Shown in pieces: positions 6,501 through 64,000 of a stretch of 64,000 bases of DNA (position 1 is the first letter of the stretch; each line of letters opens with the position of its first letter). Origin of the DNA: Paulownia fortunei. Taxonomy: Eukaryota; Streptophyta; Magnoliopsida; Lamiales; Paulowniaceae. Below the pieces are notes generated by a model. That model saw nothing but the letters and a program-made list of their open reading frames with translations, did no database searches and was not told the DNA's origin. The position numbers and the translations under genes were made by a program. The stretch is taken from the NCBI GenBank assembly GCA_019321725.1, contig CM033120.1, positions 6,019,694 to 6,083,693 on the forward strand, written 5' to 3'.

Positions 6501-7770
6501 CGAAAGTGCAACTGAAGATGATTTCCGAAAGGTTGGCTTTTCCACTCATACTAACTTACAAAACTAGTATTGTTAATTGGTAATCCTTTCTAATTTGATA
6601 TCATTTCCTTTACCAGAATTGTGAGTGTCTCATAGCAAAATATTGAAAATTATAAAAATAAAAACTGTGCCCCCTGTGAAGCTCATTGAGCGTGATTATA
6701 AGTTCTTGATTCAGAGTCAAGCAAAGTGTTACCCACACTGGGGAAATTGATGGCATAATTGGATAAGTTGCAATAGTTACTGCTAGATGAGATTTCTGAT
6801 CAGTTGCTTCACTGGAGCTTGATGAGTTAATATTATCCACTAGAGAAAGTAGCTTTTGTTCTATACCATGATCAAGTAGTCATGGAATCTGAGAGCAGAA
6901 TTTTCTCAAGCCATCTACTCAAAATGAGATGAATCTATTTATGCTTAAGATTACTAAGGTAGAATCACTGCTATATTACTAAGGTAGAAACACTGCTATA
7001 TGAGTTTGTTGAAACATCTAAACTATGTGGCCCTTTTTTCTTCTTCCTTATAGTTTTGTATGTAGAGGATACTTCTTTGTTGGACGACAACTAGGGATCT
7101 AAGTATTCATCTCTTTCACAGTGTAAGATATACCTATTATGAGATCCATCAGTAGATGAGAGACATCAATGCTAATGCTAAAACTATTCAGACTGGGAGA
7201 TGGCTCAAATTGATCTTGTATAAGCCCAATTCTCCTTTACAATGTGGTGTGTTATTAGTTGATGTGCATTCAACCACATTTGAGAATCAACTCCTTGTCC
7301 TTCCCTTTGTGTTGGTTGATTTGATCAACATCAATAATCCTTATCTGAAACCATTCATGCATACACTGTGGTGGGTTAATCATAATCCTTTCGCAGTCTG
7401 TATTTGGAGATTAAAGTTTTGAGAATTTCTATTGCAGTCTCTACCGAGGTTTCAACCTGAGAATTTGGAGCATAATAGTAGCTTGTTTGAGCGGGTGAAA
7501 GATATGGCAACTCGAAAGGGATGCACGTCATCGCAGCTTGCATTAGCCTGGATCTATCATCAGGGAAAAGATGTGTGCCCCATACCTGGTACCACCAAAA
7601 TTAACAATCTCAACCAAAATATTGGAGCTTTAGCTGTGAAATTGACATCGGAAGAGGCGGCTGAACTCGATTCCATTGCTTCATCAGTGAAAGGTGATAG
7701 ATATCAATCTCTTATAGATACATGGCTACACGTGGAAACTCCTCCCTTGTCATCTTGGAAAGTTGAATGA
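368..7770 (+). CDS. Aldo-keto reductase (perakine reductase / auxin-induced PCNT115-like), 3' part of gene, exons 2-5
   Basis: Predicted NADPH-dependent cytosolic aldo-keto reductase that reduces aldehydes or ketones; the natural substrate cannot be read from sequence. Four exons join in phase: 368-568, 3959-4131, 6429-6531 and 7438-7770. Each intron has GT at its start and AG at its end, and the Arg codon split across 4131/6429 is restored. They give 269 residues. Family members are about 340-350 residues, so roughly 70-75 N-terminal residues, including the catalytic Asp and Tyr, lie upstream of base 1. Visible family features are ELATKCGF with the candidate catalytic Lys (residue 15 of this part), [12 protein letters not shown] with the active-site His (residue 56), [30 protein letters not shown] and the cofactor-binding [18 protein letters not shown]. 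No stops or frameshifts occur, so the gene is probably functional. Introns 2 and 3 are enlarged by LTR elements. Confidence 0.9.
1008..1774 (+). mobile_element. Small deleted LTR retrotransposon (TRIM-like) in AKR intron 2
   Basis: Both ends carry a repeat beginning TGTTAGAATCAAA (1008 and 1518). A purine tract, CTTGAGGGGAG, sits directly before the second copy, as a polypurine tract should. The element ends AACA at 1774 and has a perfect 5-bp duplication TCTAC at 1003-1007 and 1775-1779. The right LTR is 257 bp. The left copy is recognisable only to about 1185, and no clear primer-binding site follows it, so an internal deletion probably removed the LTR end, the primer site and all coding sequence. 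The PPT/LTR junction suggests Copia origin. Confidence 0.8.
1518..1774 (+). repeat. 3' LTR of the small element
   Basis: Begins TGTTAGAATC, ends TTTAACA, is preceded by a polypurine tract and followed by target duplication TCTAC. It resembles 1008-1185 in the same orientation. Confidence 0.75.
3668..3685 (+). repeat. Poly(A) tract, 18 bases
   Basis: An uninterrupted run of A in intron 2. No LINE- or SINE-like sequence is visible upstream, so it is listed as a simple repeat only. Confidence 0.8.
3959..4131 (+). CDS. AKR gene, exon 3
   Basis: Acceptor AG at 3957-3958 and donor GT at 4132-4133. It encodes [20 protein letters not shown] through EEEIIPTC, plus two bases of a split Arg codon. This is the conserved barrel segment of the family with the GLSEAS motif. 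Confidence 0.9.
4158..6365 (-). mobile_element. Copia solo LTR in AKR intron 3
   Basis: On the minus strand it starts TGTTAGAGTAG (right end, 6365) and ends AACCCAACA (left end, 4158). These match the ends of the Copia LTRs at 25307-27602 and 37867-39968. It is flanked by a perfect 5-bp target duplication TTTAT (4153-4157 and 6366-6370). No internal region or second LTR is present, so it is a solo LTR left by recombination between the two LTRs of a full element. At 2208 bp it makes up almost all of intron 3, in antisense to the gene. Its weak ORFs are not genes. Confidence 0.93.
6429..6531 (+). CDS. AKR gene, exon 4
   Basis: Acceptor AG at 6427-6428 and donor GT at 6532-6533. The first base completes the split Arg codon. 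The exon then encodes [17 protein letters not shown] and a variable loop ending DDFRK. At 103 bp it is easily missed by ORF-length filters, but YSPLGRG is diagnostic for the family. Confidence 0.88.
6532..7437 (+). other. Intron 4 of the AKR gene
   Basis: A 906-bp intron with no recognised element. The ORFs at 6610-6840 (minus) and 7156-7422 (plus) show no domain similarity and are taken as chance. Confidence 0.7.
7438..7770 (+). CDS. AKR gene, last exon (exon 5)
   Basis: Acceptor AG at 7436-7437. The exon starts [13 protein letters not shown] and ends SSWKVE with TGA at 7768-7770. It contains the C-terminal helix [15 protein letters not shown] and the NADPH-phosphate binding region [20 protein letters not shown]. 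The C-terminal tail is typical for the family, so the protein appears complete at this end. Confidence 0.9.
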
Positions 7771-8766
7771 GAATGATTTCATCCATCCTATGGTAATCAA
7801 TATCTTTGTAGTAAAACTATGCTGTGCTTACGAGTTCCTCGACTATTTAACTCGAGAACTCTGCATCAATTGTCATTCGCTATCAAAGTTGGCAAGAACT
7901 CATTTAGTTTGGCAGGTCTACTTGGTTTAAGTGAATTCAATGTACTGCAATATTTTTATCAAACTTTATATTATTGTTGTGATATCATTATATGTATCTA
8001 TATCTTTATCTGTATCTATATCTCATCTATTTATGACTATATCTATCTATATCTATACCTTTATCTATATTTATATCTATATCTATATATTTATATATAA
8101 TCTATTTATGGCTATATTTGTCTCTTTATCTATATTATCCATAATCTATAATATAGAGTATGAATTGTACAAGTTGTTTCTTTCTATTTTACAAGGACTT
8201 AAATGCCCATCTTGATTAAGTTTTTAATTGGTTGTAAAAACACACAGATAAAAAGAAGAGAAAGATAAGTAGAAAAATATTTGCCAAATATCCTATTTTT
8301 ATATTGGTTAGCCTCTCTCTTAATATGAATTTACTTTTGGAAGATTTGGTTGGGACGTGAGTGGAGTTGATATTAAGGATAGTACTCTAAACATACCTAT
8401 TTGTATATTATTTGTTGATCTAATAAAATATTATTTCATATTTGATTTTGTGCATAATGGTATCCCAATGAATATTAGAAAATTATTTTTATTAATATGA
8501 TTATAATCTTAATATATAAGTATTATATGAGTGGATTAATATTATGAATAATAAATTAAATCAAATTACAATGAAATTAATTAAAGTTGAGATTTTTAAT
8601 TAAATCATTATTAGTACCGTCCATTAACTTTAACACTAAGAATGTGAAAATTTTATCGGACAATTGATGTAGTGATATTATAGTGATAGCACTCTATATA
8701 ATGTGATTATATAGATTGGATCAAATGTAAATTGAATTTTAATTTTTTGAAAATTAAAATAACATT
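7771..8766 (+). other. 3' flank of the AKR gene
   Basis: The 3' UTR and downstream spacer, AT-rich, with the microsatellite at 7990-8108. No further gene is seen. The spacer ends where the Gypsy LTR begins at 8767. Confidence 0.6.
7990..8108 (+). repeat. Imperfect hexanucleotide microsatellite (TATCTA/TATCTT)n
   Basis: About 120 bp of tandem six-base units with point variants, starting some 220 bp after the AKR stop codon. The two overlapping ORFs here (7819-8100, 7931-8215) are products of this repeat. Confidence 0.85.
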
Positions 8767-11700
8767 TGCTACAAATTTAAGGTTGCAAATCTAAGTGTAG
8801 GTTGTGTAAAATAATAAATTTCTCATGAGTTCGAGTTCGATCTATAGAGAAGTTGTTTAAAAAATTCTGGATTATATTTCTAAAAAAATGGGGTTTATAT
8901 GATTTAGAATATATAAAAAAATAATATATGTTGTAACTAAAGAAAAACAAAAGTAATAAAAATATTAAAAATTAGGGATCCATTTTGAGTTTTGGATAGA
9001 AAAATGATTATTTATTATTTTTATCTCTCAATTTGCCACTATTGGAATCCATACATAATAAAGATTCCAATGGGAAAATAATGTCCAACACTTATTTATG
9101 GGATCAAGTATTTATGCACACATGTATCTTCAACAAATCAAGGTTTCACGTTAGCAATTGGTGTAGTAAAACCAAACGTCTAGTTAAATGAACTCAAGTA
9201 TTTGTTGTGTCATTGATGATACATAAATCAAGAATCACCACAAAACAAGTATGGTTTAGATTAAAACTCAAAATAATAATACAACTTATTTAAATATTTT
9301 CTACCCTTATAACCGTTCCTCTTTCTCTCTCAAGAGGTTCACCCTTTTTTGTCAACAAAATGAAATTTAGAAAGATATAATAAAGTAGAAAAGACTAAAA
9401 ATATAAGAGAAACTAAAGAATATATTTCTATTACTACTAGAAAACTTACATTACTAGAAAATATATATTACTACTAGAAAATTTAGTCTAAAGAAACTTC
9501 TTATAAGTTTAATGCATGGCCTATTTATAGTACTTGGAGTATGCTAGATGCCAAACATATAATGGAGGAGTTAAACAATCAAGTGGTATGCTAGTTGCCA
9601 AGAATTGATAAATTGTTACACCAAATGTTTTAAATTCTCACCTACCCAATTAAATTATATTTTTAGGTCGGATACGATCAGATTTTGATGATGAGTTAAC
9701 AAAAGTTGTAAGTCTTTCTCTACTGATATATGTTCATATATCATTTGTCAAATTGGGTTGGCGGATGAGGGAGATATAGTCAAATTACCGAATCATGTTC
9801 AAGAGTTATCCTTCAACATTAGCAGCACATTGCATCATATGTGTTTACTATTTTGACATATTTTCTCACCGTCTTGTCTCAACAAACTTGTTTATTTACC
9901 TCTTGTGTATAACATATCCAAATTTCAGCCCAAAATTAATTTGGACTTAAGAGATATGACCCAATTGGTAAAATAAGTTAGGACTTGGCTGAGTTCTGAT
10001 CCGAATTTTTGGTGATCCATTTTGTACTACCACTTGGACATTTTGCTGCTATAATCAAGATTAAAATAGGTCGAGCTGCCAACACAAAAGTTGTAGTTCT
10101 ATCTCTTGAATTTTAAATGAAGTAAGATTCAGGTTCCTAGTGTAATACCCGAGCCTCGTGCTACTCATCTGGCCAATATAGTTCATGCATTTTATGCCAC
10201 GTATGTGTCATTTGCATTTTAATTGATATTTCATATTGCATTATATTTTATACGGCATTTTAATAATTAAACTTTTGAAGTTGTCACCGATATTAGTTTC
10301 CAGATTCTTTAACCTAATTGGTTGAGTTGGTACTAAGATATGAGAATTTAAGTATCAACTATTAGATAGCATTATAATACACGTAAGTGAAAGGTGGCAT
10401 CGTTGTGTTTATCGGTGTAGGATAAACTATGCAAATAAATTAATTAGGGGGAAAATAATGATAGTAATAGTAATAATAATAATAATAAAAGAAAATAATA
10501 ACATTATCATATTAATTAAGAGATTGTAAATTCTTACTAGAAATAAACTTGGGGGTTTATAAATAAACATCAAAATATTATATACTAAATATACATATAA
10601 AAATATAATATATATATACATATATATATGTATAGATGTACGAAATATATATATATATATAAGTATGTATATGGAGTATAAAACAAATGATACCATAATA
10701 TACATACATATATATATATATATGCATATATGCGTGTACCACTTGTAGTGTATAATATATTACACATATGTTATAACATATTGTAGTAGATAAGTATACA
10801 TATGTTATAATATATTATATTAGGTTTCTTAATTGTTAAGTTATATTTATGTATGTTAACACATGTCCGCACCACAACAAAGAAAGGAAAAGAAATATGT
10901 ATTAACACGCACCACACACACACGTCTGCACGATAGCAAAGAAAGGAAAAGAAAACAAAAAGAAGAAGAAATAGCACAAACAAATTTCAACTATAGAAAT
11001 GTGAGAAAATTTTGGGTAAGTCCCTTGTTCTTTTTGTACGGATAAAAATATATATTTATGCTGTTTATTTCTAATTTGAAATAAAGTTTTTGATCCAAGT
11101 TAATTAGTTATCTACCTGTGAGACAATAATTAACATACACCTTTAATTCAAAATTAATTACAAAGATTTAATTTTATTATCCTGTATTAATTGGATAAAA
11201 TAGCTAATTTAATTGAGGGATTTTTTACGGGGATTATAACACATCAATTAGATAATATTAAAATAAATTCGAGATGAGAAATTAAGGTATTCAAAAGGTT
11301 CTAATTGGTGTGAGTATAAATTTTAAGGTTTGATTGTTATTTAATTAAATTTAAGATTTAAGACCCCTTATGAGATTTGATATAAGAAACTCATTGATTA
11401 AGAATGAAAATTAATACGTTATACTTTTACAGGCAGTCTTATATCTAAGGCTAGGGAGGAGAATCTTGTTAACCTTCAGTAGGATATCAAAGGTGGAAGG
11501 TAAGTGAAAATCCATTTGCAACTACAATATATGGGCATAGTATTTCATGGCTTATTTATATTAAATGTGATCCTTGTATCTTGATGAGTGTTTTGATGAG
11601 TATTATAAATATCTTATAGTGCATACGTTGTTTGGATGACATGACATGTGATTCACTGTGTCATTGAACATGCCATTCATCAATATTTACACGTGCATGC

Positions 11701-12887
11701 ATAACACGTGCTCATAGTTGAGGTTTTGCATGCATAACATTATTTTCAGAAAGAAAATATTTTAGTTGGCCACTACTAGTGTACCAAGGCCCATGTGTGG
11801 TTTATTTATATGATATTTAGGGCGCCGCGATTATTACATTTCGAAGGATCATAGAGATTGACAGGGGGTGTGCCTCTGGTGGTCACGAGAGGGTGGACCA
11901 CTTGACTGTGCCCTTATTGATGCCGCTGGTGGGAATACTTCTGGAGGGTCACAAGGGAAGACAGGGGGTGGACCTTTGATGATCCCAGGAGATGACCCCT
12001 AGACTGTGTCGATCTGTTTATGGCCATGTGATTATTGATATTGTTGAGAGCTCTATTCGGTACATAGTAGGTGGGCCAAGGGCCTAGTGATGAAAAATGA
12101 TTTTGATGCATGAGTTCGCATTCTTGTCATGATCTCATAGAAATGCATTGCATTTATGTTGGATTATCCCCTTCAACATGCATGATTTTCATTTATTGAG
12201 CATTAGCTCACGTAGTTCATGCATTGTAGGAAAGTTTGATGATACTTGAAGCTATGGACTTACTGAGCGAACGGCTAGAGCTCCTACAGGTTCTGAGGAT
12301 CAGTGTACATGGATGACGACCTGTTGGGCTGGTTGTTAATTTATTTGACTTTGGAGTTTATAGTATTAGGTTTTGGGATTTTTACTGTGTGTTATTTTTA
12401 AAACTTTTCTGTATATAGGTATGTAAATGTTATGGTTGTTATGGGTCCTCTGTAGATATATATATATATATATATATATATTAGTTTGTGAGTGAAAAAA
12501 ATAGTTTATTATTTATTATATTGTTACAGGAAGAAAAAAAAAATTGTACATGCATACAGGATTTATCATGTCAAAATTATTATATATATAAATATATATG
12601 TGTTTGTAGTATTAGGGGTGTTACACATAGGGCTTTTCATGGAGATATGCCCAAAATACAAAAACTGTACAAGTTTGAAAACATATTTTTTTTATCCAAC
12701 AAAATATTATCTCCCAACTTTTCCATGACACGTGTTGTCTTCTTTGATTTATTTCATCTCTTTTTGATCATTTTTGTTCATTAATTTCCTAACACAAATT
12801 ATTAATAAAATAATGATATTAATAAGAATAAAGTAAGGAAATTATAAAGGATTTGATACAAAAATATGTCAAAATATGCATTTATCA
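8767..12887 (-). repeat. 3' LTR of the Athila/Tat-type element, split by a solo LTR
   Basis: Pairs with 20834-22543 over its whole length once the insertion 10141-12630 is removed, leaving about 1.63 kb. The left end reads TGCTACAA and the right end TTATCA, the same as the other LTR. Confidence 0.9.
10141..12625 (+). mobile_element. Chromovirus-type Gypsy solo LTR nested in the 3' LTR
   Basis: Starts TGTAATACCCGAGCC and ends AGGGGTGTTACA. These are the same terminal motifs as the chromovirus-type LTRs at 59685 and 60459-62737. Flanks are CCTAG (10136-10140) and CATAG (12626-12630), a 5-bp target duplication with one mismatch. The uninterrupted sister LTR at about 22270 shows the empty site. 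Orientation is inferred from the TGTAATACCC end. It includes AT-rich microsatellites near 10448-10490, 10610-10720 and 12455-12481. The ORFs inside it are low-complexity. Confidence 0.88.
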
Positions 12888-13849
12888 AATTTCTCCACAC
12901 TTAACCCTTGCTCGTTCTCGAGCAAGCCTAAAACAAACCTAAACTGATCCACTTTTATAGAAAATCACAATTACATTTAGCATATACAACAAGTCTTTAA
13001 ACCAATAGGTGGCCCATAGAGGACGAGTTATAATCTCTTGAGGGTTCCAGCGGTGATACCCACAAACACCTATGATAACTATTTTCTAACTATTACTCTT
13101 AGGGAACAACAAAGTAATTTAGAAATAAAATCAAACAAGTGTTGAATTTAACTCATAGTCATTCAAAAGTCAATTCATTTCCACAATAAGCATACTCAAG
13201 TGTGTGTGTGGATAGTTAATGTCAACAGTGACAAAACTATGTATGTTTCAAAGAAGTGAATTCTCATAAAACCTTACAAAACTATCACCCAATCTCTAAT
13301 GGAAGAGTTAAACATCATAGACTCTTCCTCTGGTACAAATCTCCACTACACCGAAGGTACCACACAAAATCAAAAGGTTTCCAATAAAGGTTGTAATGAA
13401 GCTAAAGGGTAGTGATGTGGCTAAAAAATAAAAGGATATGATACAATAAAGGTTCTAAAAATTTTATGGAATTAGAGACATAGAGTTTATCAATGAACAA
13501 TTCTCAAACTCCATGAATTTTAACACTGGGGTCTATTGCTATTAAATTGAACCCCTCTTCATAATTCTTATTCATCTTATAACATCCTATTTTAGTTGTA
13601 ACTTGTAATATTTTTAGCACTTTGTAATTTTTTTTCTTTGGTTTTCTTTTTTTTTTGAAGAGAAACTCCTCCACACTTATCTTCTATTCCAACCTAAATT
13701 TCTTTTATAAGCTCACCCTATCAATGGAATATTTCTTAAACTCCAAATTATTTTAAAACAAGGGTTGAATAATAGTGTATTTAGACTAGGTAAAAAGATA
13801 TGGTTAACACAAAAAAATGTTCATTTATTGAAAGGTTTAAAGTGACTCA
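12888..13849 (-). other. 3' untranslated internal region of the Athila/Tat-type element
   Basis: Holds the polypurine tract next to the 3' LTR (about 12888-12900; minus-strand AGTGTGGAGAAATT) and a hairpin with 8-bp stem and 4-base loop at 12907-12926. A second similar purine-rich stretch lies near 13655-13680. No ORF is seen. Confidence 0.65.
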
Positions 13850-14467
13850 CTAAGGGGATGTTCTCTTAGAACATACACAAGCCAATGTTGGATCAGGTTC
13901 TGGCACATATGTTAGAAGTTGATCAATTAGTTGGTCTGGTGTTGGAGCAGAAATGATGATCTTTTTCGCAGATGGTGAAATAAAACCTTTTTCCACAGCA
14001 TGATCTACAAAAGATAGCAAATCATCATAAAAACTATTAACATTAAGAATATCTATATGTTTTTGGTAAATATTGAGTTGTACCCAAGAGATAACTTGGA
14101 ATAATTCCTCTAGTGTACGAAAACCGTCAGGTAGAATTATGAATACATCCGCATTGTTTAACATATTAGACATTCTGTCCTGAATATGTGACACTTTTAG
14201 CTCATCTCCAATGATCATACTTGTGATATTCTGTACTGTTAAAGGTTTTAAGATAACTCCCAAAATTTTGACTCCACCTTCATGAGCAAAAGTAGCAACA
14301 CTCCCCATTAATCCCAAATTGCCTTCCCCATACACTAAATGATTTTTTTTTTCTGCTAAAGTTCTACCAAGGTTATTGGCTGCCCATATAAACTTACCAT
14401 TTTTTCTTAGATTATATCCACAAAAGGCACAAATGCAGTTGAATTTGCGAGTGGAAGAGACTTCCAT
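13850..14467 (-). CDS. LOG-like (cytokinin riboside 5'-monophosphate phosphoribohydrolase family) passenger ORF
   Basis: An intact, intronless ORF of 205 codons related to plant LOG proteins, which release active cytokinin bases from their ribotides in the cytosol. The nucleotide-binding loop reads YGEGNLGLMG (residues 46-55), against the usual GGGSxGLMG. The HxxxR element is at 94-98. The signature PGGxGTxxEE appears as PDGFRTLEE (113-121): both Glu are kept, but one Gly has become Asp and another Gly Arg. Length fits the family (about 210-220), while plant LOG genes have several introns, so this is a cDNA-derived copy. It lies in the sense of the retrotransposon between integrase and 3' LTR, where env-like genes sit. 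The ORF is open although pol is wrecked. The altered signature makes enzymatic activity doubtful. Confidence 0.85.
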   Translation of the reverse strand: MEVSSTRKFNCICAFCGYNLRKNGKFIWAANNLGRTLAEKKNHLVYGEGNLGLMGSVATFAHEGGVKILGVILKPLTVQNITSMIIGDELKVSHIQDRMSNMLNNADVFIILPDGFRTLEELFQVISWVQLNIYQKHIDILNVNSFYDDLLSFVDHAVEKGFISPSAKKIIISAPTPDQLIDQLLTYVPEPDPTLACVCSKRTSP

Positions 14468-14645
14468 TTTTTTTAAAGTGAGTTGTGCAAAAATAAAGTG
14501 AGTATACTGCTATTTATTGAAGTGTGAATAGGAAATGCATTTACATCTTTTTCTTTTGTCAGAAAGGTTGAAAATAAGGATACAAAATTTGAAAATTAGC
14601 TACTTACACATGAATATACATGTAGTTGCGATTGCGGCTTACATC

Positions 14646-15241
14646 TTTCTTTGGTTTAATGTCCAGTAACAACTTAAATGCCCTCTATGGGTCGAGTATA
14701 TGCTTACCATCTAGTTTTCTTATAAACTGGAAAACAAAGTCTTTTAATATTATATTTCTAAGACTATAAAGCTTATATTCAGTTCGAAATTGATCTCATA
14801 AATCAAGAATTATACTTTGTACTAATCCTTATGGATGCATCTTAAAAGTCAATATAATGTGATCTAAAGACTCCTTACTCACTCCATCCTTAATGAATTT
14901 AAGTTTATCTTTTCGATTTTGAGAAACCATTCCTAAGGAACGACACTTTGTGTTACAAGTCCATCTAGCACATTTGCGATACTTTTTTATTTTTTTCATC
15001 GTTCATTTTTTAAATATGTGCTTTTACCAAAACCAGACATGTATCTAGTAAGAAAATCTGAAAACTCATGTGAAAACTCACCTACTCTTACCTTTACTTC
15101 AATTATCCATCGTATGTCCTCTAAGATGCCCTTGTGCATGACCATCTTTAATCTTTCAATCCTGATTTTATAAATTTTTAAAATTTCATTTTTAGGAAGA
15201 AAAGAAAATCGCTTCGTGAGAGTTAGAAAAATATCACCCAC
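14646..15241 (-). pseudogene. Unidentified passenger coding remnant between integrase and LOG-like ORF
   Basis: I do not recognise the family. Reading right to left, a clean frame runs 15241-14996 (81 residues, containing GEFSHEFSDFLTRYMSGFGK). A shift in frame at an A-rich run is then followed by a coherent stretch of about 115 residues with a Cys cluster (CARWTCNTKC), FKMHP and DFVFQFIRKLDGKH, broken by only three stops. The amphipathic, non-repetitive composition and low stop density argue for real ancestral coding sequence. It matches none of the gag, pol or env-like modules I know and may be a second captured host-gene fragment or an element-specific extra ORF. Confidence 0.5.
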
Positions 15242-15519
15242 TTTGAAAAGAAAAGGAAAAGAGAATGAAAAAAATTAAAAAACTATGTACAGAGATTTCA
15301 GTTGTTTGGGAAATTGACAAATCCGACTTTAATAGCCATAGAATACTACTATCCGCCACTTAATCGGGAAAAGAAAAAAAATAAAAGAAAGAAAGCCTTC
15401 AAAATAAATAAATTCAGAGAAAATAAGTATATATATATATATATATATTTATACAACACTAATCATAATAAGTGTTAGAAAGAAAAATAATTTTCTCTTA
15501 TGAAAATTAATTTTTTAGA

Positions 15520-16580
15520 AATGGTTTAACTCTTTGTCCATTTACTTTGAATATGTTACTATTTCTAGGATTTTCACTGTCAATCGCCCCATAAGGATAT
15601 ACTTTTTTTACAACAAAAGGACAACTCCACCTTGATCTCAAATTTTTAGGAAACAAATGCGATTGAGAATTATAAAGCAAAACCTTTTAACGAACGCCAA
15701 ATATTTTTCTTGAAATTTATTATCATGAAAATCTTTGATTATTTCTTTATAAATTTTAGAATTCTCATATGCATCATTTCTCAATTCTTGAAGTTCATTG
15801 ATTTGTAGTTTGCACAATTTAAAGTTTCATCAAGGTTAAAGTTAAACATTTTGATTACCCCAAAAGTTTTATGTTCAAGTTCAATAGGTAAATGACAAGG
15901 TTTTCCATAAACTATCCTATAAGGAGACATGCCTAACGATGTTTTGAAAGCAGTTCTATATGCCCAAAGTGTATTGGTAAGTCTAAGAGACCAATCTTTA
16001 CAGTTTGGATACTGTCTTTTCCAAAATTTATTTATCTCCCTATTTGTAAGTTCAAGTTTTCCATTTGTATGAGGGTGATAAAGGGTTGCAACTTTATGTA
16101 TGATTCCATATTTTCTCATTAAAGTTCCAAAAATTTTATTATAAAAAAGTTTTCTCCCATCACTAATAATAGATTAAGGAATTCAAAATCGACTTAAAAT
16201 ATTTTCTTTTAAAAATTTTACCACTATTTTGTGATCATTGTTTCGACAAGGAATTGCCTAAATCCATTTTAAAACATAATCTATGACAACCAATATGTAA
16301 ATAAAATCAAATGATAATAAAAATGGTGCCATAAAAGTCAATACCCCAACAGTCAAATATTTCAATTACTAGGATAGGGTATATGGGCATCATGTTTCGT
16401 ATTGAAATAAATCCTAACTTTTGATAATTTTCACAACTTTTGTAGAAAGTGTAAGTGTCTTTGAAAAGAGTTGGCTAATAAAATCCATATTGCAAGATTT
16501 TTGTAGCGATTTTCTTTGCTGAAAAGTGACCACCGCTTTACTTATCTCATTGTCAGGCACACATCTTCAAAAGATTTGAT
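15520..16580 (-). pseudogene. Integrase remnant of the Athila/Tat-type element
   Basis: The best-preserved part is 16119-15781: KYGIIHKVATLYHPHTNGK, then NTLWAYRTAFKTSLGMSPYR and YGKPCHLPIELEHKT, the C-terminal half of the catalytic core and its extension. Upstream (16580-16130) the HHCC and first Asp region is visible only in broken frames. Downstream to about 15520 similarity continues in shifted frames. It is non-functional. Confidence 0.85.
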
Positions 16581-16685: not shown

Positions 16686-18064
16686 TCATAAGAAAATTAA
16701 TAATGTGAGCAAACCAATGTAAAATGAAACATTAGATAGTTGTTCATCAGGAAAAGTGACATTAATGGGTGTGGGTTGAAATAAGTCATTACAAACAAGT
16801 CTTGACAAATGATTAGTCACTACATTCTCTACTCCTTTCTTATCTCGAATCATAATATTAAATTCCTGGAGTAAGAGAATCCACCTAATCAATCTAGGTT
16901 TGACATCTTTTTTTGACAAAAGATATTTCAAAGTTGCATGATTACTGAAAACAACAACATGTGTACCCATAAGATAAGATCTAAATTTGTCCAATGCAAA
17001 AACTACAACAATTAATTCTTTTTCAGTTGTTGAATAATTTAATTGAGCACTATTTAAAGTTTTACTTGCATAGTAAATAACATATGGTTTCTTATCTTTT
17101 GTTTGTCCTAAGACAGCTTCAACAACTTAGTCACTAGCATAACACATTATTTCAAAAGGTAAAGTCCAATCTGGAGACTGCATGATTGGAGCAGATGTAA
17201 GCATGCTTTTAAGCTTAACAAAAGCATTTTCACAATTTTCAGTCCATTCAAAAATGGTGTCTTTTGTTAGAAGATTACACTAAGGTTTAGATATTATACT
17301 AAAATCTTTGATAAATCTTCTATAAAAATCAACAAGTCCTAAAAATGATCTTACCTCATTCGCAGTCTTTGGTATTGACAAATTGTTAATTAACTCAATT
17401 TTAGATTAGTCAACCTCAATACCTTTTGATAAAATAATATGTCCAAGAACAATACTAGTTGTTATTATGAAATGACATTTTTCCCAAATGAGCACAAGAT
17501 TTTTTTCTTCACACTTGATCAAAACCTTTTCTAAATTAGATAAGAAATCGTCAAATGAATTACCAAAAATAGAAAAATCATCTATGAAGACTTCAAGAAA
17601 AGGTTCAACCATGTCACTAAAAATACTAAGCATGCATCATTGGAATGTAGTTGGTGTATTACATAATCCAAAAGGCATCCTTTGGTATGAAAAAGTACCA
17701 AAATAGCATGTAAAAGTTGTTTTCTCTTGATCTTCAAGTGTAATTATAATTTGATTATACCCATAATATCCATATAAAAAGCAGTAAATTCATGTCCCGC
17801 AACTCTTTCTAAAATTTGATCTATGAAAGGTAATGGAAAATGATATTTTCTAGTAATTGAGTTAAGTTATCTATAGTCAATACACAATCGCCAGCTAGTA
17901 ATAGTCTTAGTTGGAATTAATTCATCATTTTCATTCTTGACTACAGTAACTCCAGATTTCTTAGGTACAACTTGAGTAGGACTTACCCATTTACTATCGA
18001 AAATAGGATAAATGGTTCCATTATCTGAGAGTTTAATAACTTCATTTCTCACAACTTCCTTCAT
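16686..18064 (-). pseudogene. Reverse transcriptase and RNase H remnant of the Athila/Tat-type element
   Basis: RT start is at 18064-17867 (SKWVSPTQVVPKKSGVTVV and SWRLCIDYR). The palm motif FIDDFSIFGNSFDD and LVLIWEKCHFI-VLGHIILSKGIEVD are in 17633-17406. RNase H is in 16994-16686 ([42 protein letters not shown]). The segments lie in different frames with many stops between them. Confidence 0.9.
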
Positions 18065-18980: not shown

Positions 18981-19190
18981 TCTTTTTACTTGGGTGGAGT
19001 GAATTGTTGAATAATTGAACTAACACTTTCAGTTGAAAATGTATTCTTTTGTACATGATGTTTTCTTTTGATTGAATATAAATCTTTGAAAAATTTGGTA
19101 TAAGGTGGAACTTGCTTGATTTCATCCAGCAATAGAATATTAATCTTGACTTGTTTAAAAACTTCAAAGATTTCAGCATTTGAGTTCAAT

Positions 19191-20636
19191 TTATGAGTTG
19201 ATTGCAATCTTAAAGGAAAGGGTACTGGAGGTAAATATTTTTTTTTCATCATTTTCAAACTTACCTTCATCATCAAGACTATTTCCATTCTTCATTTTTG
19301 GAGGTGGATTAGAAAATTTCTTCTTGGGATGAATAGTCATATTAATAACTTTCCCATTCCGAAGAGTTATGATCAAATTAGCCTCCTTGATTGGATTTTC
19401 ACCTAAAGAAGAAACATGACACTGAGTGAAAGAATTAGGTTGAGGTTGAACATAAAATTTACCTTTTTCATGAGTACGCAAAGAAGTTATCAATATTGAA
19501 AGTGTGCTTTTGATCTTATTGATGGCTTGTGAAGTCTAATTATTGATGTTTGTTTGTTCATGCATAAATGCTTGTAAAGTTTCCTGAAGGGATTTTGTAT
19601 GTGGAGCTAGATAAGAAAGAAAGTTTGGTGCCTTTTGTGAATATAGCGGTTGGGCATGGTTATCATCTTGCCAACTAAAATTGGGATGATTTTTCCATTG
19701 TGGATTGTAAGTTTCAAAATATGGAGAATGGAAAGGTTTTTTGAAAGTGTTCATGAAATTTCCTTGTACTGGAATATTTGGACATTCATTGGTGGAGTGC
19801 CCCACAAGTTCACAATTGCTACAAACTTCTTCCACTTGCATAGATTTGATTTTCTTTACTTTTTTAAGTTTCATGGCTTCAATGTTTCTTGTTAAACTAG
19901 CAATCCTTGCATTTAGATCATTTTCTTAACTAAGATAATATTTTTCTTTATTACTATTAGCAAGATTATATCTAATAGAACCTTTAAAATAATTAATACT
20001 ATGCCATAATTGATAGTTTTATGCCAAAATAGCCTAGATATTCTAGGGCTTCATCCAATTCTTTATCAAGAAACTCACCATTACACATTATTTCAATAAA
20101 TTATTTAATTTTAGGAGTTAAACTTTCATAAAAGAAATTAATTAAGTGCTATTTTTTAAAACAATGATGTGGGTATGAATTCAACAAATCTTTAAATCTT
20201 TCCCAACATTAAAAGAAAGCTTCACTAGAATTTTGAGAAAAAATTGAATTTGTCTTTTCAAAGCATTAGTTTTATGAGTTGGAAAGAATTTTTTCAAATA
20301 TTCAACTTACGTTTCTTGCCAAATGCCAAGTTTTTGCTTTATCTTTTAAAGAAAAAGGAAATAATTTTAGTTTAACAATCTCATTTGTGCAAGTTTGATC
20401 ATCAAAAGTGGCACTTACTTCATCAAATTCTTTCGGATGCAAGTAAGGGCTTTCAGAGTCTAAACCATGGAAATGAGGAAGTAAAGGGATCATACTGGCT
20501 TGAATCGAAAGTTATTTGCATTGAGAGGAAAAATGAAACAAGAAGGAGAAGAATTTTGATGAGGTTGCAAGTAATAACGCATGGTAGACACCTGTTAATT
20601 CTCATTTTCATTCTGGACACTTTCATTTTCAGCCAT
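19191..20636 (-). pseudogene. Gag remnant of the Athila/Tat-type element
   Basis: The likely gag start is the ATG at 20636 (MAENESVQNENEN, then a stop). The capsid part is at 20493-20302 (FHGLDSESPYLHPKEFDEV, LKLFPFSLKDKAKTW). A CCHC zinc knuckle, CSNCELVGHSTNECP, lies around 19822-19780. The gag/protease linker with LRNGKVI follows at 19493-19191. There are many frame breaks. Confidence 0.88.
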
Positions 20637-20809: not shown

Positions 20810-20827
20810 TCCCCGACAATGGTACTA
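20810..20827 (-). promoter_or_regulatory. Primer-binding site, tRNA-Asp type, decayed
   Basis: Read on the minus strand, the 18 bases six nucleotides inside the 5' LTR are TAGTACCATTGTCGGGGA. The complement of plant tRNA-Asp 3' end plus CCA is TGGCGCCGTTGCCGGGGA. Thirteen of 18 match and all five differences are transitions. Athila-type elements commonly use this primer. Confidence 0.8.
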
Positions 20828-20833
20828 AAAACT

Positions 20834-22543
20834 TGCTACAACTTTAAGGTTGCAAATCTAAGTGTAAGTTGTATTAAGTAAAAAAAATGAGGTCGATCCA
20901 CAGGGAAGTTGTTTGAAGAATTCAGGATTACATTTCTAAAAAAATAGGGTTTATGTGATTCAAACTATATAAAAAAATAATATATGTTGTAACTAAAGAA
21001 AAATCAAAGTAATAAAAGTACTGACGATTAGGGATTCACTCTTGAGTTATGAATAGAGAAATGATTATTTATTCTTTTTAACTCCCTTAATTGCCACTAT
21101 TGAATTTCATACATAATGAATATTCTAATGGGAAGATATTATCAAATAGCTCATACAATAAAGTAATCATGATATTATCTTACTATTTGTAAATTATATC
21201 TTAACGACAACACTTATTTATGAGATCAAGTATTTATGCACACCAGCGTCTACAACAAATCAAGGTTTCATGTTAGCGGTTGGTGTAGTAAAACCAAATG
21301 TCTAGCTAATTGAATTCAAGTATTTGTTGTGCCACTAGTGATACATAAATCAAGAATCACCACAAAATAAGTAGGGTTTAGGTTAAAACTCACACTAATA
21401 ATACAACATACTTAAATATTTTCTACCCTTATAAACCGTTCCTCTTCCTCCATCAAGAGGTTCACCCTTTTTCCTCAATAAAATAAAATTTAGAAAGACA
21501 TAATAAAAGTAGGAAAGACTAAAAATAGAAGAAAAGTTAGATAATACATTTCTTTTACTAGTAGAAAACTTACATTATTAGAAAATATATATTACTACTT
21601 GAAAACTTAGCCTAAGGAAACCCTCTACCCCCCTTTCTTACAAGCTTAATACATGTCCTATTTATAGTACTTGTAGTATGCTGGAGGCCAAACATATAAT
21701 GGAGGAGTTAAACAATCAAGTGGTATGTTAGTTGCCAAGAGTTGGTAAGTTGTTACACCAAATTCTCTAAATTCTCACCTACCCAATTGAATTTCATTTT
21801 TAGGTTAGATACAGCTAGATTTTGATGATGAGTAAATAACAAAATTGTAGATATTTTTATGTTAACATAGTTTCATATATCATTTGTCAAATTTGGTTGT
21901 CAGATGAGGGAGATATAAGTAAATTACCGAATCATGTCCAATAGCCATCTTTCAACATCACCAGCACTTTGCAGTATGTAATTTTACCATTTTGACATAT
22001 TTTCTCACCTTCTTGCCTTCAACAAACTTGTTTATTTATGTCATTGTATAACATATCCAAATGTTTACCCAAAATCAATTTGGGCTTTAAGAGATATGAC
22101 CCAATTATTAAAATAAGTCAGGACTAGGCTGAATTTTGATCTGAATTTTGGGGATCCATTTTCTATAATCACTTGGACAAATTTTCTGCTATAATCAAGA
22201 CTGAATTGGGCTGAGCTTCCAACAGAAAAGTTGTAGCTCTATTTCTTGGCTTTCAAATGAAGTAAGATTCAGGTTCATAAGGCTTTTGATCATGGAGTTT
22301 TGCCTAAAATACAAAAATTGCACAAGTTTGGAAACATGCTTCTTTTTATCAAATGAAGTATTATCTCCCAACTTTCTCATGAGACGTCTTGTCTTCTTTG
22401 ATTTTATTTTGGCACTTTTTGATCTTTATTTGTTCATTTGTTCCCCAACACAAAATATTAATAAAATAATACTATTAATAAGAATAAAGTAAGAAAAATA
22501 TAAAGGATTTGATACACAAATATGTCAAAATATGCACTTATCA
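20834..22543 (-). repeat. 5' LTR of the Athila/Tat-type element
   Basis: 1710 bp, from TGCTACAA at the left to TTATCA at the right, uninterrupted. It pairs with 8767-12887. The primer site sits just to its left. Confidence 0.9.
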
Positions 22544-41312: not shown

Positions 41313-44300
41313 ATGGCTAAAAATCCACTAGCATCTATCTTCGAAGCTAATAAATTAACTGGTCCCAACTATGTCGATTGGTTGAGGAACCTTCGAATTG
41401 TTCTATAGTCCCAAAAAAAGGATTACATACTTGATGAAATTCCTCCATCGATCGAGCTGGCGAACGCCACTAAGAAAGAGCTTGTTGATTACCACAAGCT
41501 GGCTGATGATGATCTACAAGTGTATCGATATCAAACAAGTCACAGGGGCAATACAAGGTATATACACATGATATCTATGTTCACCTACAAGAGTCGTATG
41601 GTGAACATACTAGGTAAGAGAGATATTAGATCTCGAAAGAGCTTTTTAGGACCCATATGACGAAGGGCTCTTTAGTCCATGATCATAGATTGAAGATGAT
41701 AGGCCTAATTGAAAGGCTCGAGTGACTTGGAGTCGTTATGGGTAACGAGCTCTATCTGGATCTCATCCTGTAGTCTCTGCCTCCATTGTTTGACACCTTT
41801 ATTGTCAACTTATAAGATGAAAATTAGCCTTATTGAGTTGATTAACATGTTGCAGATGGCTGAGTCCACTATAAAGAAGGACAAGTTGATCATGCTTATA
41901 GAATTCTCATCTAACTCGAAGGCTGCAAAGCCCAAGAGGAAGAAGATGAGAGAAAAATGTTCCTCAAAGTCCAAAGGCATGCAGCCAATTGGTGGCATCT
42001 CCAAGAGTTCCAATAAAACTGATGACAAGTGCCACTAATGTGGAAAACTTAGGCATTGGAAGAGGAGCTGTAAGAAGTACCTTGCAACCTTGAAGAGTTC
42101 AGGTATTTCTTTTATTAAAGTTAACTTATTAGTTAACGATGCTTCTTGGGTATTAGATATTAGATGTGGATCTAATCTATGCTATGATTTGCAAGTGATG
42201 GCAAGAAGTAAGAAGCTAATTAGAGGAGAGACAGTTCTATGGCTGGGGAATAGAGCAATTAGTCATAGGAAGTGTCAACTTAGCTTTAGGAAATAGAGTA
42301 GTTTTAATTTTGAACAATTATCTTTATGCTCCAGAGATAGTTAAGAACATTATCTCCATGGAATTTTGGATGGAGAAGGTTTTACTTTTAAATAAAATAT
42401 GAAAGTTGTTCCATTTTTAGAGATTCATATTTGATTACTTCTAGCATATTGATGAATGGTTTATATTCTATTACTCCCCATATCTACTTTTTCCATGTTC
42501 AACAAAATAAAAGAAAATTAGATAATCATATTTCTCAACTCTTATGGCATGCTAGATTAGGTCATATCTCTGAGAAAAGAATTCATAAGTTGGCTCAATT
42601 GTTTGATCTTTTGAAAGAGCAAGGAATGTCAACATATGAGTCATGTCTCAAGGGAAAGATGACCAAATCACTATTTGTTGAACAAGTGCAGCAAGCCGAA
42701 GATCTATTGGATTTGATCCATTCGGATATATGCGGGCTACTAAGTGTTAGTGCTTGTGGGAACTTTTATTACTTCATAACCTTTCCTGATGATTATTCTA
42801 GGTATGGTTATGTTTACCTTATGAGATACAAATTTGAAGCTTTTTAAAAGTTCAAAGAATTCAGATGCAATGTGGAGAAACAAACTAGGCTAAGTATCAA
42901 GGCTCTTCGATCACATCATGGAGGTGAATACTTGAGCAAAGAGTTTCTTGATTACCTAAAAGAGAATGAGATTCTTTCTCAGTAGACCCCTCCTGCTGCT
43001 CCTCAACTTAATAGAGTTGTGGAACATAGGAATCGAACCTTGTTAGATATGGTTCGATCGATGATAAATTTCACTAGACTTCCTCTTCTATTTTTGCGCT
43101 ATTCTCTAGAAATAATGGTATATCTATTAAATAGAGTATCATCAAAGTCGGTACCCAAAACACCATCTGAGATGTTGTGTAGGAAACCACCCTCTTGTAG
43201 ATACCTTAGGATATGGGGGTGTGCTGCTTACGTGAAGCAGCAAGTGGGAGGTAAATTAGATATAAGATCTAGTTTATGTAAGTTTGTGGGGCATCTAAAG
43301 AATCCATCGTATACTACTTGTACGACTCATCGGAACAAAAGGTGTTTGTTTAGAGAAATGCCACCTTTTTAGATGTGGAGTTTCTATTGGATAGAAATAG
43401 GGAAGTCGTGAAACTTGAAGAAATTCAAGCACCATAGAGCCTCCCAACAAAGGCAATAATGCGCCAACCAGTTGAAGCTGGGCCTTCGGACACACAACCT
43501 CCTATGAGATCCCAATGGATCTTAATGCCACATGTGTGGTATAGCTTTTTGTTAGAGAACAACGAGGAGGATATCCCCTTAAATAGTGATCTAAAGACTT
43601 ATGGAGAGATGATGTCTGACATTGACTCAAAAAGTTGGCAAGATGCCATGTAATCCGAGATGGACTCCATATACTCCAACAAGGTATGGACCTTGGTGGA
43701 CCCACCATGGGGAATAGTTCCCATTGGCTGCACATGGGTCTATAAGCAAAATTGCAAATGGGTCTACAAGCAGAATCTTGGAGTAAATAGAGAGGCAGTG
43801 TCCTACAAAGCATGGATGGTCGCGAAAGGTTATACTTAGAAGCAAGAAATTGATTAAGAAACTTTGTTACTAGCAGCGATGCTTAAATCCATCTGGATAC
43901 TGCTAGCTATATCAGCATATTATGACTATGAGATATGGAATATGGATGTGAAGACCACTTTCCTTGATGTAAATATTAAGGAAGAGATCTCTATGAGGCA
44001 GCCAGAATACTACATATCCAGAGGGAGCGAGCAAAAGGTTTGTAAACTTCAGAGATCCATTTATGGACTCAAGTAGGCTTCCTAAAGCTGGAACATCTGG
44101 TTTGATGAGGCAATCAAATTTAATTTCCACAATAATTTGGATAAACCATGTGTCTACAAGATGGTTTGTGGGAGTGCAGTGACATTCATTGTGTTGCATA
44201 TAGATGACATCCTACTCATTAGGAATGATTTATAGATGTTGTAGTCAACTAAGGCTTGGTTGTCTAACCAGTTCTCCATGAAGGATCTGGGAGAAGCATC

Positions 44301-59685: not shown

Positions 59686-60458
59686 TCTTCCCCTCCTTAT
59701 TAAAATTTCATCCTCGAAATTTACTTATCGAAAGAGTTTTGGATACCTAACTTTCATATCATCTTCCCTTTCCAAGTAGCTTCTTCTGTCGATTGATTTC
59801 TACATAGTACTTTAACCAATGGGATCTTTTTATTTCTGAGTTGTTTTATTTCTCATAGAAGAATCTCTACAGGTGTTTCTTCATAACTCAAATCTACTTT
59901 CAACTCTATAAGTTCATTTTTCAAAATATGAGATGTATTTGCAATATATTTCCTCAACATGGATACATGAAATATATTGTGCACTTGAGATATTGATCCA
60001 GGTAGGTCGAGTTTGTAAGCAACATCCCCAATTTGTTTAATAATATAAAATGGACCAATATATCTAGGACTGAGCTTTCCTTTCTTTCCAAACTGCATAA
60101 TCCCCTTCATTGGAGATAACTTTAGAAATACTTGATCTCCTTCTGCAAATTCTAACATTCTTCTTCTTTGATTAGCATAACTTTTCTATTGGCTCTGGGC
60201 AGTCTGCATTCATTGACGAATTTGTGTCACAGCTTTTATCATTTCTCGAATCATATTTGCGCTCAAAAGCTTATTTTCACCAACCTTATCCTAATGAACT
60301 GGAGATCTATATTTTCTACCATATAATGCTTCATAAGGGGTCATTCCAATAATGGACTGATAGCTGTTATTATAAGAGAATTCCACGAAAGGTAAAAATT
60401 TGTTCAATTGACCATGAAAATCTAATGCACAAGCTCTAAGCATATCCTCTAATATTTG
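59686..60458 (-). pseudogene. Gypsy-A pol end: integrase C-terminus and chromodomain-like tail
   Basis: Read right to left: end of the integrase core (60450-60290, SYNNSY and YEALYGRKYRSPVH), then the C-terminal region 60158-59853 with GDQVFLKLSPMKG, LSPRYIGPFYIIKQIGDVAY and HNIFHVSMLRKYI. A stop is followed by the degenerate chromodomain-like tail VKVLCRNQSTEEATWKGE down to about 59715. Similar in order to Gypsy-B. Stops are present and the frame is interrupted at 60458 by Gypsy-B. Confidence 0.88.
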
Positions 60459-62759: not shown

Positions 62760-64000
62760 TTAATCCTTGAAATTTGACGTACCAAATAATTCTGGATACT
62801 TGTTCTGTATTTCTTCTTCTCTTTCCCGCATGGCCTTTTCTATAGAATGATTCCTCCACAATACTTTAACAAGTCGAATCTTTTTTGTTCTCAACTCTTT
62901 TTCCTTTTGATCCAAAATTTGCACTGGTTTCTCTTCATAAGCTAAATCAGGAGACAATTCCAACGGTTCATAACTCAACACATGAGAAGGGTTTGAAATG
63001 TACTTTCTTAACATAGACACATAGAAAACATTGTGAACACTAGATAATAATAGAGGTAAGGCCACTCTATAGGTTTTATCACCAACTTTTTCGACAATCT
63101 CGAATGGGCCGACATACCTTGGGCTGAGTTTTTCTTTCATTCCAAATCTCATAACACCTTTCATTGGAGCTACTTTTAAGAGCACATGATCCCCAATGTC
63201 AAACTCTAGATCTTTTCTCCGTTTATCTGCATAACTTTTCTGTCTACTCTGCGCAATCTTCATTCTCACTTGTATCTTCTCCACTACCTTAGCGGTATGT
63301 TGAACTATTTATGGACCAAGTAGGCTTCGTTCTCAAACTTCATCCCAATGAACTGGAGATCTACATTTCTTTCCATACAATGCTTCATAAGGCACCATTC
63401 CAATTGTTGATTGGTAGCTGTTATTATAAGTAAACTCCACTAATGGAAGCTTTACATCCCAACTCCTTTGAAAATCTAGCAGACAAGCTCTTAACATATC
63501 CTCTAATATCTGAATAACCCTCTCTGATTGCCCATCACTTTGGGGATAAAATGTTGTACTAAATGCAAGTTTCGTTTCCATGGTACTGTGTAAACTTTTC
63601 CAAAATGTAGATGTAAACTTAGGATCTCTGTCGGACACTATTGAAACTGGCATCCCATGTAACATGATTTGGTTACATATTGTATGTAGATTTCACTGGA
63701 AGAAAATGGGCTGATTTAGTTAATCTATCAACAATCACCCATATGGAATTATACCACTTTTGTGTTCTAGGTAATCCAAGCATAAAGTCCATTATAATAT
63801 GCTCCCATTTCCACTCTGGAATCAACAAAGGCTTCAACAACCCTGATGGTCTTTGATATTCAATCTTAACTTGTTGACAAGTTAGACATTCAACCTTAAA
63901 TTTTGCTATATCTCTTTTCATTTTAGGCCACCAATAATATTGTTGTAAGTCCTTATACATTTTTGTGCTACCTAGGTGTAGCGAATAAGGAGTAGTATGA
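62760..64000 (-). pseudogene. Gypsy-B pol: integrase with chromodomain-like C-terminus, partial
   Basis: Read right to left. 63960-63673 has the zinc-binding Cys part (CLTCQQVK) and core start (MDFMLGLPRTQ, VIVDRLTKSAHFLPVK). 63665-63333 has the rest of the core (SIVSDRDPKFTSTFWKSLH, TTFYPQSDGQSERVIQILED, WDVKLPLVEFTYNNSYQS). 63284-62760 has the C-terminal domain (LSPRYVGPFEIVEKVGDKTY, VSMLRKYISNPSHVL) and a chromodomain-like tail (VKVLWRNHSIEKAMREREEE). The break near 63666-63672 is a frameshift plus loss of some residues before LHGMPVS, and a stop lies near 63310. It inserts reverse-transcribed DNA in an active element; here it is damaged. RT lies outside. Confidence 0.9.

Follow-up and report, generated by a model that had tools for sequence, protein, structure and literature searches.

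The LOG-like open reading frame (ORF) at positions 13850..14467 of the window, the 64,000-nucleotide stretch of the Paulownia fortunei genome analysed here, is in all likelihood an accessory gene belonging to a Ty3/Gypsy retrotransposon family of high copy number, here in a copy that is old and decayed, a reading that covers both its identity and its history. The LOG gene is a standard part of this family, and at least 150 matches to the window ORF were found in the P. fortunei assembly of 509,145,858 bases.

The window element and its LOG-like ORF

The ORF lies on the minus strand and has 205 codons, the last 8-10 or so of which are read-through past a deletion. From stop to stop the frame extends over 219 codons, and the next longest same-strand frame in the element has 146. 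An intronless frame with the motifs YGEGNLGLMG, HIQDR and PDGFRTLEE is present as the initial annotation had described it. It occupies the env position of a Gypsy element, after integrase and before the 3' LTR, and is oriented like pol. The protein search proposed in that annotation yielded matches to PF03641 (Pfam; E=4.8e-29) and TIGR00730 (NCBIfam; E=2e-38). The nearest solved structures are Arabidopsis At2g37210 (the best match, E=5e-49) and At5g11950, and profile and fold together place the ORF in the LOG family, the fold match being taken from its relative P0001 (2a33, E=4.2e-25). The model of the window protein has the same structural elements as its relatives at a lower confidence (81.6), and both start codon and fold are kept. 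Catalytic Arg99 and Glu122 (CgLOG numbering) are present as R98 and E121, and Lys100 of the adenine site is Met. The PGGxGTxxE phosphate-binding motif is absent and reads PDGFRTLEE; the replacement of two signature glycines noted earlier is thus real (G115 to D and G118 to R). In the stretch ahead of the LOG start codon (14468-14620, minus strand), a TATA-like AATAAATAG some 45 bases upstream could be an internal promoter.

The remaining parts of the element are on the same strand. The 5' LTR (20828..22543), whose inner end was placed by the primer-binding stretch, adjoins a primer-binding-site-like sequence of degenerate TGGCGCC type (20811..20827, by sequence inspection) that we presume perhaps matches tRNA-Asp. 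There follow a gag fragment with a CCHC zinc knuckle (19536..19925; zf-CCHC_4, E=0.02, weak) and a fragment at 18986..19291 that, from its position, we take to be part of the gag/protease region. Fragments of reverse transcriptase (17406..17636; RVT_1, E=9.7e-5, under the curated cut-off), RNase H (16686..17126; PF17917, E=7.6e-28) and the integrase core (15781..16173; Ty3 Gag-Pol, E=0.0019, and PFV integrase, E=0.009, without a Pfam match) precede a short spacer ORF between integrase and LOG (14996..15274). The 3' LTR (8761..12888, outer end approximate) is interrupted by an unstranded insertion at 10141..12625 that is bounded by TG...CA and flanked by the near-identical 5-bp sequences CCTAG and CATAG. 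This insertion is probably a solo LTR of another element, and is younger than its host element because it lies inside the 3' LTR. Paired LTRs with gag, reverse transcriptase, RNase H and integrase in Gypsy order identify the element as Ty3/Gypsy; the RNase H match is strong and those to gag, reverse transcriptase and integrase are weak. Neither an aRH domain nor a chromodomain, both of which an Athila-type element would lack, was found among the 13 element pieces scanned with profiles, which are broken. No target-site duplication of the main element was seen by eye.

Elsewhere in the window, also by eye, minus-strand ORFs at 59853-60158, 62760-63284 and 63333-63665 resemble parts of integrase and of the C-terminal pol region from another Gypsy element, and plus-strand ORFs at 41709-43372 look like Copia-type gag/integrase pieces. 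The ORF at 7432-7770, about 1 kb off the outer end of the 3' LTR, resembles part of a plant aldo-keto reductase.

The LTRs of the element had been described as diverged, and the pair is indeed 85.8% identical over 1626 sites (144 transitions, 87 transversions and 17 indels; K2P 0.159). The accompanying description of the ORF as intact was rejected on alignment with four other genomic copies (L003, L006, L007 and L008), against all four of which a deletion of about 0.83 kb is evident in the window copy, with its junction at 13874..13881 on the minus strand. Window positions 15300-13881 correspond to about 652-2087 of the loci L003, L006 and L008, and 13874 onward to 2923-2939 onward; the L007 alignment breaks at 13889 and 13867. 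Owing to this deletion the last 21 or so LOG codons, present in element-type relatives of typically 216-217 amino acids, are lost together with the C-terminal tail, and the frame now ends on codons from sequence that the four other copies have some 0.83 kb further downstream. No EAR motif of the form LxLxL or DLNxxP is found at the shortened C-terminus. The window element is a dead, old relic, with LTRs 14% diverged, a broken pol, a deleted LOG tail and replaced phosphate-loop glycines.

Genomic copies and the action of selection

A search of the P. fortunei assembly with the LOG ORF gave 4170 candidates, of which 150 were scored, and all 150 matched. The window itself was recovered at 100% identity and the others at 73-80%; counted by eye, about 90 of the 150 are free of internal stops and about 60 contain them. 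With flanks of 1.5 kb, the integrase piece and spacer ORF adjoin LOG at approximately 90-92% DNA identity in six of seven other loci (about 90% for the spacer ORF), and both are absent beside LOG in the seventh, L005. In each of six copies fetched downstream, the family LTR starts about 1.7-1.8 kb past the LOG stop codon and is 83-84% identical to the window 5' LTR over the main part. The LTR pairs of five of these copies are 98.9, 99.4, 99.3, 97.8 and 99.6% identical, which indicates that the family moved recently and that the window copy, at 85.8%, is far older than these relatives. For the sixth copy (on C12) no match to a 5' LTR was obtained. A gain of the ORF private to the window copy, or a late one as the initial annotation had contemplated, was rejected: other copies of the element do carry the same ORF, as attested by the 150 scored matches, their element flanks and the relatives in other plant families.

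An ORF of 217 amino acids is present in 31 of 52 loci (L010-L061), representing 29 places and 29 distinct sequences. The 52 loci correspond to 48 places, four having been fetched twice, and were chosen from the best matches to the window ORF and to a Populus LOG piece, which favours intact frames.

The open frame in the window had also been thought to raise the question of selection, for which the changes in this copy give no support. When polarised with Rehmannia P0013, 11 of 22 amino-acid changes fall at conserved positions, as if at random, such positions making up 39% of the total (p=0.28); a conserved position is one that is the same in at least 90% of 42 relatives, with the Paulownia and Rehmannia rows left out, and 22 changes are few data for a neutral reading. 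Changes between the window and Paulownia lie at conserved positions in 14 of 39 cases, against 7 of 57 between Paulownia and Rehmannia (Fisher p=0.011). NG86 dN/dS between the window and the 29 distinct copies is 0.45, not 1, a value that mixes two lineages. On the polarised changes and the dN/dS comparison, selection was rejected as the cause of the open frame, although simulation keeps some doubt and points the other way. Under neutral evolution at LTR-derived rates, a frame of 196 codons acquires no stop with a probability of 0.13-0.23, or 0.006-0.011 once frameshifts are counted. A neutral survival of 0.6-1.1% leaves room for some constraint after insertion of the window copy, though the simulated indel rates may exceed those of coding sequence, most LTR indels being of one base and lying in A/T-rich stretches. 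Domestication of this copy by the host, with its ORF under selection, would agree with that survival of about 1%, with a frame longer than any other that the element has on this strand (219 codons against 146) and with the persistence of start codon and fold. It is nonetheless highly improbable, given the two replaced phosphate-loop glycines, the deleted tail and the 11 of 22 changes at conserved positions. G:C to A:T changes could explain 17 of the 22 amino-acid changes; no deamination bias is claimed, as the unpolarised DNA differences between the window and the 29 copies comprise 15 G:C>A:T and 12 A:T>G:C transitions.

Across the element family as a whole, sequence comparisons indicate purifying selection on LOG. 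Changes between Paulownia and Rehmannia are depleted at conserved positions, with 7 of 57 there where 39% would be expected (p=1.5e-5), and polymorphisms common to several of the 29 distinct genomic copies comprise 15 nonsynonymous and 14 synonymous changes (p=0.003 against neutrality). NG86 dN/dS among the 29 copies is 0.36. Constraint is weaker for singleton changes among these ORFs, at 61.5 nonsynonymous to 27.5 synonymous (0.68 per site). Were the gene instead a passenger, transduced long ago, of no benefit and retained only since it is nearly harmless, broken copies such as the 60 or so with internal stops would be expected to be numerous, and the window changes would be spread evenly over conserved and variable positions, as they are. 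This explanation is improbable, because the Paulownia-Rehmannia changes avoid conserved positions, the shared polymorphisms are depleted of nonsynonymous changes, and fold, catalytic residues and tail are conserved across Paulownia, Rehmannia, Reevesia, Diplodiscus and Populus.

Relatives in other plants, the adenine site and the C-terminal tail

Three protein searches, two of which give the best 120 of about 8000 scored, returned 162 distinct proteins (P0001-P0162). Twelve are host or bacterial proteins, 14 carry HERKAEM or HEHKAEM and are termed K-type, and the other 136 are element-type by exclusion. Among the matches listed, element-type proteins occur in Paulownia fortunei, Rehmannia glutinosa, Reevesia pubescens, Diplodiscus trichospermus, Populus trichocarpa, P. 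nigra and P. x canadensis. These hosts include members of the orders Lamiales and Malvales. In a tree of 60 rows, whose alignment contained the tail columns, the element-type clade comprises 47 rows including the window (support 99/100). The window pairs with P0001, which is close to the Paulownia proteins (100/97), and then with Rehmannia (100/98), and P. trichocarpa LOGL10 (P0116) falls inside the same clade. The eight host LOG rows group apart from it (96/93), and the branch uniting the K-type with the element-type clade is weaker (81/96). K-type proteins (P0023-P0026, P0087, P0127 and others, including those of Xanthoceras) keep the lysine and, in those whose end is regular, finish with KKRRLA, KKRKLA or KRRRLD and no LxLxL; this sister group is the natural comparison for function. 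One search of viral contigs was without a match and another gave a single distant match of 38% (L001).

Three of 134 proteins match this element outside LOG. In the Paulownia gene model P0037, a piece of the spacer ORF (22 amino acids, 73% identical, E=9e-7) is fused to LOG, and in the Xanthoceras models P0040 and P0041 the fused piece is related to the gag/protease-region fragment (E=1.7e-7 and 6.3e-7). These fusions support the same element arrangement there. The retroelement context is established for Paulownia alone and supported for Xanthoceras by gene-model pieces. Gene models named or numbered in host style in Paulownia, Reevesia, Rehmannia and Populus fall in the element-type clade, and those of Xanthoceras in the K-type sister group, which is a warning for annotation: such models would inflate LOG gene counts.

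At the adenine site, 132 aligned relatives among the matches listed have Met (70), Ile (35), Leu (25), Thr (1) or Lys (1), whereas Lys is present in all three K-type rows and all 12 host or bacterial rows. The catalytic Arg is kept in 126 of the 132, the two Glu in 127 and 128 (the catalytic Glu in 128), and the PGGxGT glycines in 128, 130 and 128. These residues, and a fold that is that of plant LOG, would suit an element protein that is still a cytokinin-releasing LOG enzyme, where more active cytokinin in meristematic or germ-line cells would favour divisions that let the element transpose and pass to the next generation. Against this, the adenine-site Lys is missing in 131 of 132 relatives. 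Published passages on CgLOG describe Arg99 and Glu122 as catalytic residues and count Lys100 among the AMP-binding residues whose replacement by alanine nearly abolished activity, naming S19A as an exception and giving no itemised list of mutants (PMC4979012). Moreover, the window copy scores 80 against an NCBIfam LOG equivalog cut-off of 300, the NCBI models behind this cut-off being meant for bacterial and archaeal annotation. Retention of the enzyme activity is rather unlikely.

The second shared change is the tail. LxLxL occurs in the last 12 residues of 118 of the 136 element-type proteins among the matches listed, or 119 with the DLNLTP of P0107; the other 17 are shortened, extended or have a changed Leu. 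None of the 14 K-type proteins has it, and it is absent from the last 30 residues of all 12 host or bacterial proteins, a comparison that stands on about seven of the 11 plant host entries as four have odd gene-model ends. After clustering at 80% identity, 26 of 31 clusters have LxLxL, one has DLNxxP and four have neither, and none has LxLxL within the first 190 residues; the short motif is common, and shuffled last 12 residues still yield it in 13% of cases. At least three K/R are present in the eight residues preceding LxLxL in 112 of 118 proteins. In the model of P0001 the body is well folded (pLDDT >90 in most blocks) and the tail, residues 202-217, is mostly below 50.

Leucine-rich short motifs have several uses, and the tail may possibly be a packing, export or Gag-binding segment and not a repression motif, the link to TOPLESS being a prediction. 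This reading is doubtful to about the same degree as a repressive role, and its difficulties are the extreme C-terminal position of the tail, its disorder in the P0001 model and the basic cluster ahead of it. LxLxL and DLNxxP are both described as forms of the EAR motif (PMC6283911, PMC9956375), and the DLNLTP of P0107 fits the second, although P0136 and P0098, which are closely related to it, have an LxLxL end and an extended end.

Origin, proposed function and known systems

Long ago an ancestor of the family would have acquired, by a presumed route, a LOG coding sequence free of introns and placed between pol and the 3' LTR. Since the ORF is intronless and groups with plant LOGs, not with the two bacterial rows, the likely origin is a retrocopied host mRNA. 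An intron-bearing host parent was not found in a search of the genome with a Populus LOG piece, where the 150 matches scored of 2744 candidates were 54-62% identical and are taken as element-type. As the elements spread they kept the LOG fold, the catalytic Arg and Glu and the PGGxGT loop, exchanged the adenine-site Lys for Met, Ile or Leu and added the basic and LxLxL tail.

Tail, basic cluster and altered adenine site together suggest that the LOG fold of the element may have been repurposed as a nuclear repressor, a proposal that we put forward tentatively. The protein would bind a nucleotide ligand through the LOG fold, the basic cluster would take it into the nucleus, and the EAR-like tail would recruit TOPLESS-type co-repressors, damping host expression in the element's favour. 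In its general form the proposal is that a widespread plant Gypsy clade encodes a LOG without the adenine-site Lys and with a nuclear, TOPLESS-recruiting tail. It is conceivable, from sequence features, that such a protein is a retroelement-encoded repressor through which host transcription or silencing is adjusted for the benefit of the element, perhaps with a purine nucleotide or a cytokinin precursor as the gating ligand.

The presence of LOG in plant Gypsy elements is already known. A survey covering 121 angiosperm genomes (Alvarado-Marchena et al. 2022, PMC9289625), which refers to an earlier report (Steinbauerova et al. 2011), records the YgdH (LOG-family) domain in Gypsy consensus sequences from Citrus sinensis and C. 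clementina and, without a filter, from Populus trichocarpa. These elements share the domain and the Ty3/Gypsy setting with the window element, and P. trichocarpa LOGL10 shares its clade. The published passages give domain and occurrence alone, with no tail, lysine change or Lamiales (PMC9289625). The LxLxL tail and lysine loss were not found in the open-access literature searched; within that literature, the occurrence in Lamiales and Malvales, the copy number, the tail and the lysine loss go beyond the published passages.

Among host proteins, At2g37210 (LOG3) and At5g11950 (LOG8) share the fold and most active-site residues and are 48-51% identical to P0001 by structural alignment. Unlike element-type proteins, the host LOGs compared keep the Lys and have no LxLxL tail. 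Gypsy elements of orchids carry a functional AlkB m6A demethylase (PMC9289625), likewise a host-type enzyme domain in an accessory ORF; the domain is a different one, and its activity was assayed, whereas LOG is known here from sequence. TOPLESS-interacting effectors, described in terms of EAR motifs, include Jsi1 of Ustilago maydis (PMC8126959) and HaRxL21 of downy mildew (PMC7446885). The likeness lies in a parasite-encoded protein that reaches a host co-repressor; these are microbial effectors with a reported interaction, whereas that of the retrotransposon LOG is predicted. Should the tail recruit TOPLESS, a fold that serves as a hormone enzyme in LOG would have become a regulator, and plant retrotransposons would carry their own repressor of host expression, as some pathogen effectors appear to.
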